Origin: an uncultured Bacilli bacterium
Lineage (GTDB): Bacteria > Bacillota_I > Bacilli_A > RF39 > UBA660
Length of the DNA: 45,587 bases
Assembly: GCA_905235045.1 (NCBI GenBank)
Contig: CAJOJO010000002.1
Location: forward strand, 1-45,587
Direction: 5' to 3'
In this document: positions 1-45,335 of the stretch, one piece after another
Layout of the letters: each line of letters opens with the position of its first letter
Numbering within the stretch: the stretch's first letter is position 1
Position numbers and translations under genes: made by a program
Notes under the pieces: generated by a model
What the model was told of the DNA's origin: nothing
The model's input: the letters and a program-made list of their open reading frames with translations, nothing else
Databases searched by the model: none

Positions 1-25
1 ATTATAAACAGAGAGTAGGGTTATA

Positions 26-517
26 ATGAAAAGAGTATTTAATAAGAGTAATGTGTTTAGTTTCTTAATAGGTATATTATTATGCGGTAGTATTGTGTCT
101 GCAGCAACATTAATAGATTCAAAAGATGTAACATATACTTCAAGTGATAGTAGCTTTGATGCTAATAATGTAGAAACAGCTTTAAATGAATTATATAGTA
201 AGATTGAAAATAGTAATAATTTTGTTGGTTATACTTATGGATATAACACAATAACATATTCTAATTTACAACCTGGTCATTACAAAGTGTATTGCACAGC
301 TGCAACAGTAGCAAGTTCATATTATGATGTTACTTATGCATATTATGATTATTCCTTTAATGTAACTGGAGGAACTTATACTATTATTGATAGTGATTCA
401 GGAATTAAAGTCTATGATGTTAATATAACAGATTCTAATGGTAACTGTTCATTTACAACAACAAAATGGAGTGGACGATTAAATTCAAACGGATTAATGT
501 TAGTATTTAAAAAATAG
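26..517 (+). CDS. small secreted protein with conserved N-terminal module (TLIDSKDVTYTxSxxxFxxxxVExALNELY) and unique C-terminus
   Basis: 163 aa ORF; hydrophobic signal-like N-terminus; same N-terminal module as ORFs 44083-44574 and 44681-45214; leader ATTATAAACAGAGAGTAGGGTTATAATG matches those copies. Confidence 0.85.
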   Translation: MKRVFNKSNVFSFLIGILLCGSIVSAATLIDSKDVTYTSSDSSFDANNVETALNELYSKIENSNNFVGYTYGYNTITYSNLQPGHYKVYCTAATVASSYYDVTYAYYDYSFNVTGGTYTIIDSDSGIKVYDVNITDSNGNCSFTTTKWSGRLNSNGLMLVFKK

Positions 518-43124: not shown

Positions 43125-44003
43125 TTATATTCCTCCTTCATGTGGATGATTTTTATATGTTTCTTTTTTTATATTATTAGAAACATGAGTATATATTTGT
43201 GTTGTTGAAATATTAGAGTGACCTAATAAAGTTTGAATACTACGTAAATCAGCTCCATTTTCTAACATATGAGTAGCAAATGAATGTCTTAATGTATGAG
43301 GTGAAAAATTAACATTTATACCTTTTATTTTAGCTAGTTCTTTAATTGTTTTAAAGAATGCTTGTCTTGATATTTGTTCTCCTCTATTATTTAAAAATAA
43401 ATAATCACTTATTTTATTATGAAGTAATTTATTTCTTGCTTCTTTTATATATAAATCAACATAGTAAATAGCATAATCACCAATCGGAATAATTCTTTCT
43501 TTAGAGCCTTTTCCATTTACTAATACAGTAGCATTAACTAAATCAATATCACTCATTTTAATATTTAATAATTCACTTATTCTTAAACCTGATGCATACA
43601 TTAATTCTAACATCGCTTTATCACGATAGTTTTTACTAGTTTTTAAATCAATATCCAATAGATTATCAATATCATTTGTATTTAAAACAGTTGGTAATGT
43701 TTTTCTAAGTTTTGGTAATTCTATTTTATCAGTAGGATTTTCATCTATAATGTTTTGTTGTTCTAAATAATTATAAAAACTTCTTAATACAGTTAAAGCA
43801 TGAGCAACTGATCTAGTATTCATTTTATTAGTATAATCTTCTAAAAATTTTAATACATCTTTTTTCTTTACTTTTTTTAAATCTTTTTTTATAAATTTTA
43901 AAAAATTATGAAGATCATTTTCATAAGAAAGCATAGTATTAGAACTATATTTTTTATCAATTAATAAATAGTTTTTAAATTGTTCTATATAATTCATACT
44001 CAT
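43125..44003 (-). CDS. xerD: site-specific tyrosine recombinase XerD
   Basis: [58 protein letters not shown]; xerD-deoB order. Confidence 0.92.
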
Positions 44004-44082: not shown

Positions 44083-44574
44083 TTAATTAAATACAATATT
44101 ATTAAAATGCGCAACTGATACATAATTTAATTGACCATTTCCACTTCCAAATCTAATATACTTATATTCATTTATATTAACTGTATATGTTTTTGAAAAA
44201 GTAGTAGTAGTTGCCCATTTATAATCAAATAATTGAGTCCAATCAGTTAAATTATTACTACCAGCAATATACCACTGAGTTGGATAAGTTACAGCATTGC
44301 CATTTGCATCACCATTAGCAGTAAATGTAATTTCATCTGCATTTACCTCTATAATTGTTTTACTACCACGATAAATGTCTATTGATATTGGATTATTCGA
44401 TTTAGCATTTATTTTATCATATAGTTCATTCAATGCACTTTCTACATCACTAACATCAAATTCATTATCACTTGGAGTATATGTTACATCCTTTGAATCT
44501 ATCAATGTTGTAGCATACACAACTCCGCTACTTATTAGTAATCCAATGAAAACGCCTAAAACTATTTTTTTCAT
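44083..44574 (-). CDS. small secreted protein of the same family as 26-517, unique C-terminus
   Basis: MKKIVLGVFIGLLISSGVVYATTLIDSKDVTYTPSDNEFDVSDVESALNELYDK. Confidence 0.87.
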   Translation of the reverse strand: MKKIVLGVFIGLLISSGVVYATTLIDSKDVTYTPSDNEFDVSDVESALNELYDKINAKSNNPISIDIYRGSKTIIEVNADEITFTANGDANGNAVTYPTQWYIAGSNNLTDWTQLFDYKWATTTTFSKTYTVNINEYKYIRFGSGNGQLNYVSVAHFNNIVFN

Positions 44575-44597
44575 TTAATCCCTACTCTCTATTTATA

Positions 44598-44628
44598 ATT
44601 ATACCCCCCCCCCAACAGCAAAAGTCAA
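44598..44628 (-). promoter_or_regulatory. G10-tract promoter (TTGACT-N9-G10-TATAAT), predicted phase-variable
   Basis: -35 at 44628-44623, C10 (plus strand) at 44604-44613, -10 at 44603-44598; 19-nt spacer. Confidence 0.85.
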
Positions 44629-44680
44629 TAAAAAAATGCCTTACAAATTTGCATTTTTTATGTAGAATATTATTTTTGTA

Positions 44681-45214
44681 TTAATCAATTCCGTAGTAAA
44701 TACTAGCAACTGTATCCATACTATTTCCACCATATGATGTATTAATAGTTATTGTTCTGTTAGTAATTCCAACTACTGGAGAATAAGGAGAAGCCGAAGG
44801 AGTTGACGTATATTGAATATTTTGCGTAGTAATCCCATTTCCCATAACGGATACGGTTGTTGCATTAGCATTATGTCTAATAAGCCATACAATACTACTT
44901 TTATTCTCAGGTACTACCAGTATTGTCCAGTTTTTTGATATATCTACATTAGATGTACCCAAATCAATATCAATGTATTGTTGTGAAGATGTAGTGTTTG
45001 AAAAACTGCCATGAGAAGTATAAATATTAAATAATGTTGGAGTATTAGATGATTTTTCATATAATTTATCCAATGCATCTTCTACATTATTAGCATTAAA
45101 TTCATTATTACTTGGTGTATATGTTACATCCTTTGAATCTATCAATGTTGTAGCATACACAACTCCTCCACTTACTAATACGCCTATTATAAATCCAAAT
45201 ACTATTTTTTTCAT
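44681..45214 (-). CDS. small secreted protein of the same family, unique C-terminus
   Basis: MKKIVFGFIIGVLVSGGVVYATTLIDSKDVTYTPSNNEFNANNVEDALDKLYEK. Confidence 0.87.
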   Translation of the reverse strand: MKKIVFGFIIGVLVSGGVVYATTLIDSKDVTYTPSNNEFNANNVEDALDKLYEKSSNTPTLFNIYTSHGSFSNTTSSQQYIDIDLGTSNVDISKNWTILVVPENKSSIVWLIRHNANATTVSVMGNGITTQNIQYTSTPSASPYSPVVGITNRTITINTSYGGNSMDTVASIYYGID

Positions 45215-45237
45215 TATAACCCTACTCTCTATTTATA

Positions 45238-45268
45238 ATTATACCCCCCCCCCGAACACACTTGTCAA
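45238..45268 (-). promoter_or_regulatory. G10-tract promoter (TTGACA-N9-G10-TATAAT), predicted phase-variable
   Basis: -35 at 45268-45263, C10 (plus strand) at 45244-45253, -10 at 45243-45238; 19-nt spacer. Confidence 0.87.
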
Positions 45269-45335
45269 TACAAACAAATGTTTTATTTTGCTTGATTATA
45301 TATTATTTATTTGCTATAATGATAATGGTGATAAT

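Follow-up and report, generated by a model that had tools for sequence, protein, structure and literature searches.

A perfect -35 hexamer and a perfect -10 hexamer, separated by a spacer that ends in ten uninterrupted Gs, precede a gene for a putative secreted protein in an uncultured Bacilli bacterium. They lie close to one end of the window, i.e. the whole stretch of 45,587 nucleotides analysed. Does the tract control the gene by changing its length, as proposed in a preliminary description of the locus, or is it a fixed, or incidental, component of the promoter? The data reported below make it highly probable that the G10 tract is the slippage-prone spacer of a sigma-70-type promoter, which switches, or grades, the expression of the downstream surface-protein gene.

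Two poly-G promoters and a modular gene family in the window

The relevant features of the window are the following; the promoter elements were read directly from the sequence.

45268..45238, minus strand: promoter 1, entire (TTGACAAGTGTGTTCGGGGGGGGGGTATAAT)
45263..45268, minus strand: -35 hexamer of promoter 1, TTGACA
45244..45253, minus strand: G10 tract of promoter 1, inside the 19-nt spacer
45238..45243, minus strand: -10 hexamer of promoter 1, TATAAT
44681..45214, minus strand: gene 1 (P0001, 177 aa), start ATG at 45214, hydrophobic N-terminus
44623..44628, minus strand: -35 hexamer of promoter 2, TTGACT
44604..44613, minus strand: G10 tract of promoter 2, 19-nt spacer
44598..44603, minus strand: -10 hexamer of promoter 2, TATAAT
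44083..44574, minus strand: gene 2 (P0002, 163 aa), P0001 paralogue preceded by promoter 2
44413..44634, minus strand: 222-nt direct repeat, copy 1 (promoter and N-terminal module)
45053..45274, minus strand: 222-nt direct repeat, copy 2 (promoter and N-terminal module)
43125-44003, minus strand: xerD, immediately following genes 1 and 2
1..25, plus strand: leader of a third promoter of the family (ATTATAAACAGAGAGTAGGG..), the contig starting within its -10 region
26..517, plus strand: third paralogue (163 aa), start ATG at 26

Promoter 1 reads TTGACA-AGTGTGTTC-GGGGGGGGGG-TATAAT, hence TTGACA-N9-G10-TATAAT, and the perfect hexamers and the 19-nt spacer with G10 previously described are matched exactly on the minus strand at 45268..45238. 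The accompanying statement that the region has no other run of more than five Gs has to be corrected, as a second G10 tract is found 640 nt downstream (44613..44604); besides these two tracts, no run of more than five Gs or Cs occurs in the window. The second tract belongs to promoter 2 (44628-44598, minus strand), which was missing from the preliminary description and has the organization TTGACT-TTTGCTGTT-G10-TATAAT, again with N9 before the tract. The G+C content of the window is 24.9%, and base composition predicts 0.00014 G10 or C10 tracts versus the two present. Similarly, G7 matches were 8, versus 0.18 in dinucleotide shuffles.

The two promoters precede related genes. P0002 shares 72% identity with P0001 across the first 54 aa, and the C-terminal halves are unlike. 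At the DNA level, the copies of the 222-nt direct repeat are 84% identical and span the promoter and approximately the first 54 codons, beyond which the proteins diverge. The third paralogue, at the left window end, is 62% identical over residues 2-54; its tract was not assembled because the contig begins inside the -10 region. As judged from its sequence, P0001 is predicted to be a secreted or membrane-anchored protein, made of a conserved N-terminal module and a C-terminal domain of its own. Searches of Pfam, NCBIfam and PHROGs with P0001 and P0002, and a sequence search of PDB with P0002, gave nothing above cut-off or convincing. AlphaFold single-sequence models (mean pLDDT 36 for P0001, 50 for P0002) were too poor for use, and the resemblance of the C-terminal domain of P0002 to carbohydrate-binding domains, a by-eye impression, is not claimed.

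Poly-G tracts in the host genome and in the family

The host assembly (G000; 884 kb, 44 contigs, 78% complete) contains 11 tracts of at least eight Gs. Ten of them reside a short distance upstream of genes for secreted or prepilin-like proteins, and eight of these ten abut TATAAT directly, TTGAC or TTGAT being located 18 or 19 nt upstream. The tracts C4:35169 and C33:230 are placed three bases past TTGACA/TTGACT, and are followed by TATATATTACAATATAAT or TATATATTATACTATAAT; in both cases inspection showed a plausible -10 (TACAAT/TATACT) at a distance of 20 nt from the -35. The targets of the ten tracts have either signal/anchor-like N-termini (P0001 family) or prepilin-like N-termini, and Pfam N_methyl (PF07963) was recognized in the two prepilin-like proteins tested. 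Eight P0001 paralogues were found; the tract is present in all five for which upstream DNA is assembled, the other three being cut by contig ends.

The eleventh tract (C1:1666; L041:1666-1675) is of another kind. It is a C10 on the other strand, and lies in a long leader after an ordinary-looking promoter of the 17-nt type. A comparison of this leader with Rfam gave no match.

The same architecture recurs among relatives. A scan of 389 genomes of the same GTDB family with the pattern TTGA-N-G7+-TANNNT revealed 682 poly-G spacer sites in 110 genomes, 38 of which host at least five sites, up to a maximum of 47; the reversed pattern, used as a control for composition, yielded 9 sites in the same 389 genomes. 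The occurrence of this organization at ten surface-gene promoters of the host and throughout the family supports the notion of a slippage-controlled promoter spacer put forward in the preliminary description. The preference for G is marked, as the poly-C counterpart was found at 3 sites versus 327 poly-G sites in the same 172 family genomes. Slippage of the spacer alone does not explain this near-absence of poly-C on the coding strand. Many contigs of the host MAG and of related MAGs end at or near poly-G tracts, and poly-G promoter sites are therefore probably under-counted.

Genes downstream of poly-G promoters

A strongly hydrophobic N-terminus is encoded by 65 of the 80 genes (81%) found downstream of poly-G promoters at the named loci, versus 21% of the background, made of other ORFs of at least 100 aa (Fisher p ~6e-26). 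By eye, the targets at the named loci include lipoproteins, proteins with signal peptides, prepilins and TasA-like secreted proteins.

The relative G026 (L053, L055-L057, L059, L062-L064) encodes a group of secreted proteins, some of them in tandem, in which the N-terminus is constant and the C-terminal part variable. The corresponding promoters have the sequence TTGACCGAAAGGTC-G7/G8-TATAAT, or close variants of it, and a dyad GACC-GAAA-GGTC in the -35 region. A poly-G spacer pattern was also found at L089, before a gene resembling UDP-galactopyranose mutase; genes for polysaccharides may thus be under poly-G promoters, too.

Tract length and spacer length

Promoters of the same genome which share an identical flank from the -35 to the tract were grouped, and the number of Gs was found to differ in 27 of 37 groups. 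In one genome the flank TTGACAAATATGC is followed by G9, 10, 11, 13, 14 and 14 (spacers of 16 to 21 nt); the flank TTGAGAATAAAAAT is followed by G7, 8, 9 and 9, and tracts after TTGACT range from G9 to G11 among promoters. Tracts of G13-G16 occur elsewhere. Length differences at constant flanks are what strand slippage produces, the sequences compared being paralogues and not alleles of one locus. A search for allele pairs, i.e. identical upstream sequences with unlike tract lengths, gave no clear pair; it retrieved two weaker pairs and one duplicated locus, where approximately 300 nt of upstream DNA are closely similar and the promoters differ by a 4-G indel (G13 vs G9). The slippage reading of the preliminary description gains from these comparisons, since the G count differs between otherwise identical promoters of the same genome, and the tract moves while the total spacing stays near 15-20 nt.

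Several points weigh on the other side, the strand preference for G noted above among them. Database G tracts may carry wrong lengths, as cautioned in a study on Bifidobacterium (PMC9187656), and consensus lengths of G tracts in MAGs can be wrong. The lengths of paralogous tracts could have diverged slowly, and not through frequent slippage. Finally, MutS is intact in the host genome, and should lower slippage rates. MutS is present in all the family members tested, split across two contigs in some; its integrity in the host rules out the loss of mismatch repair as a cause of slippage.

Most tracts adjoin the -10. In another group the tract adjoins the -35, as in TTGAC-G10-TATTATAG-TATAAT, and a good -10 was recognized by inspection some 16-20 nt from the -35, though -10-like hexamers are easily found in AT-rich DNA. 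Since the tract may adjoin either hexamer, total spacing, and not tract position, seems to matter. The idea of a fixed site bound by a poly-G-specific factor was set aside, as both tract length and distance from the -35 vary.

Spacer lengths were compared with those of ordinary promoters, defined as promoter-like pairs of near-consensus hexamers lacking poly-G in the same DNA. Ordinary promoters peak sharply at 17 nt (30, versus 8 at 16 and 10 at 18 nt). Spacers of poly-G promoters number 14 at 15, 20 at 16, 11 at 17, 37 at 18, 47 at 19 and 25 at 20 nt. The 17-nt class is under-represented among them (Fisher test of 17 nt against the rest of 15-20, p ~2e-12, sites of the same genome not being independent). 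In the named set, weighting by genome still leaves 17 nt below both 16 and 18 nt; the dip is less clear in per-genome means of the family set. The pattern may be accounted for in either of two ways: most loci are weak in the dominant population, or the optimum is longer for a poly-G spacer. The optimum reported for the Treponema pallidum tp0126 spacer, 17 nt (PMC7864442), tentatively favors the weak state, though a longer optimum may apply here.

Alternative readings

The poly-G spacer might be a fixed structural element with a working optimum of 18-20 nt, serving constitutive or tuned promoters whose tracts drift slowly in length, without phase switching. G tracts are thought to be A-like and under-wound. 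A fixed element would fit the main spacer mode at 18-20 nt seen in many genomes, and a coding-strand tract which is nearly always G, not C. Yet it leaves aside the second mode at 15-16 nt, and the range covered by promoters with identical flanks, up to 5 nt (G9-G14), with still longer tracts elsewhere, seems too wide for a fixed optimum. For tp0126, a poly-G spacer is reported to work best at 17 nt (PMC7864442), which also argues against an optimum of 18-20 nt. On balance, we regard the fixed element as unlikely. A different role for the same length, 19 nt in both window promoters, would be that of an operator for a MerR-type activator, which untwists an over-long spacer in response to a signal, slippage having no part in regulation. 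Dyads consistent with this were noticed in two host copies, where GACA-N5-TGTC overlaps the -35 (C8:19725, C21:5768), and in the relative G026 (GACC-N4-GGTC). Most copies, the two in the window included, lack a dyad, the 9 nt preceding the tract are unlike between copies, and spacers vary from 15 to 21 nt within the set. By inspection, dyads are thus confined to a minority of copies and do not form the conserved operator in the spacer typical of MerR-type promoters, which makes such regulation very improbable.

In some mycoplasmas, inversions are driven by Xer genes that neighbour surface-gene loci, and the repeats of the window might similarly be recombination sites in the first place, the 222-nt unit exchanging ectodomains or inverting promoters with the involvement of the neighbouring XerD, and the G tract being incidental. 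The direct repeat does join the two window genes, and the xerD-type gene adjoins them. Invertible promoters of the mycoplasma type have inverted repeats around the promoter or the gene. The copies found here are direct, no strong inverted repeats flank the window promoters (the inverted pairs detected are weak and mostly AT-rich), and the window XerD scores as an ordinary housekeeping equivalog. Moreover, neutral repeats are not expected to retain spacer tracts of G7-14 in 110 genomes. We deem recombination as the main function of the repeats extremely improbable; it could act in addition to slippage.

A model for switching and its relation to known systems

The architecture, its recurrence, the surface-type targets and the differences in tract length are observed; slippage as the cause of these differences, switching at single loci, its rate and reversibility, its consequences for expression and its biological role are inferred. 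The slippage model may be outlined as follows. Single Gs would be gained or lost at replication, shifting the distance between -35 and -10 in steps of 1 nt; each step would change promoter strength, and transcription would be switched, or graded, in a heritable and reversible manner. The host genome would contain at least ten such promoters, two of them in the window, each driving either a conserved signal/N-terminal module joined to a differing outer domain, or a prepilin-like protein. Each surface gene would flip on its own, and many combinations of surface proteins would coexist in a clonal population, plausibly for immune, phage or niche diversification. Both window promoters, at 19 nt, are probably in a weak state, and G8 (17 nt) would be strong. 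This prediction, made for promoter 1 in the preliminary description, agrees with the 17-nt optimum reported for tp0126 (PMC7864442). Across the host genome, interchangeable surface proteins are probably served by a family of promoters which slippage controls and which are mostly weak or off. Whether this extends to a contingency system of the whole family, with up to dozens of surface genes per cell, each requiring one or two slippage steps to reach the 17-nt optimum, most off and few on, and hence to combinatorial switching in commensals and not in pathogens, seems to us evenly poised.

In Mycoplasma hyorhinis, poly-A tracts lie in the promoter spacers of the vlp multigene family of surface proteins. 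The homopolymeric spacer and the surface multigene family are alike; the tract is poly-A and not poly-G, and the proteins are unrelated. In porA of Neisseria meningitidis, the spacer hosts a tract of 9-11 Gs, and expression is 2-fold lower with 10G and 13-fold lower with 9G than with 11G (PMC3639595). Both systems have a G tract in the promoter spacer of a gene for a surface protein, and in porA the length of the tract sets expression. In contrast to porA, one gene of a Gram-negative pathogen, some ten promoters are involved here in a single G+C-poor genome of uncultured Bacilli, the leader being shared and the proteins modular. In Treponema pallidum, poly-G tracts are found in the promoters of tprE/G/J/L, those of tprL ranging from 7 to 11 in vivo; the portion of the report accessible places the tract between -35 and -10 for tp0126 only (PMC7864442). 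The presence of poly-G in the promoters of several genes for surface proteins is a common trait, but the treponemal set includes few genes of one species, and no relationship among the proteins is claimed. In the gut commensal Bifidobacterium breve, slippage of G tracts controls surface pili, and G tracts in promoter spacers are mentioned as well (PMC9187656); unlike the host promoters, the tracts studied reside in coding sequences and act by frameshift.

As in the homopolymer-spacer class of the porA/tp0126 type, a homopolymer is thus enclosed by recognisable -35 and -10 hexamers, tracts of unequal length occur between constant flanks (here in paralogous promoters of the same genome), and the targets are surface or secreted proteins, as predicted from their N-termini. 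In the literature covered, which is incomplete, no account was found of poly-G promoters forming a set of genome-wide and family-wide extent in gut Bacilli. The mechanism is a known one, of the porA and tp0126 kind; scale and lineage appear new. If the model is correct, surface switching of a type known until now chiefly from a handful of pathogen genes is at work in a large group of uncultured gut bacteria, and involves tens of promoters per genome in some of them. As tract length gives the switch state, on and off could be deduced locus by locus from deep or long-read metagenomes, and surface variation in uncultured symbionts would be measurable without culture. Tract-length variation would in turn be hidden by consensus MAGs, in which contigs frequently break off at or close to a tract.

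Poly-G promoters outside the family

Among 151 genomes sampled from the same phylum, most of them highly complete, a stricter pattern matched in only a single genome outside the family. Viral contigs scanned for the poly-G promoter gave no match. A scan of public genomes, in which single matches can be due to chance, retrieved the same architecture in MAGs of uncultured Bacilli, Tenericutes, Clostridia and Saccharibacteria, and in isolates. Saccharibacteria MAGs from ruminant guts (L093, L099, L112, L131, L149) exhibit poly-G spacer patterns, several each in G412, G417 and G427. Among the isolates, four sites were found in Treponema bryantii, for example, and 23 in Streptobacillus notomytis (G428), which is culturable; two of the latter (L113 and L154) precede short proteins with signal peptides.
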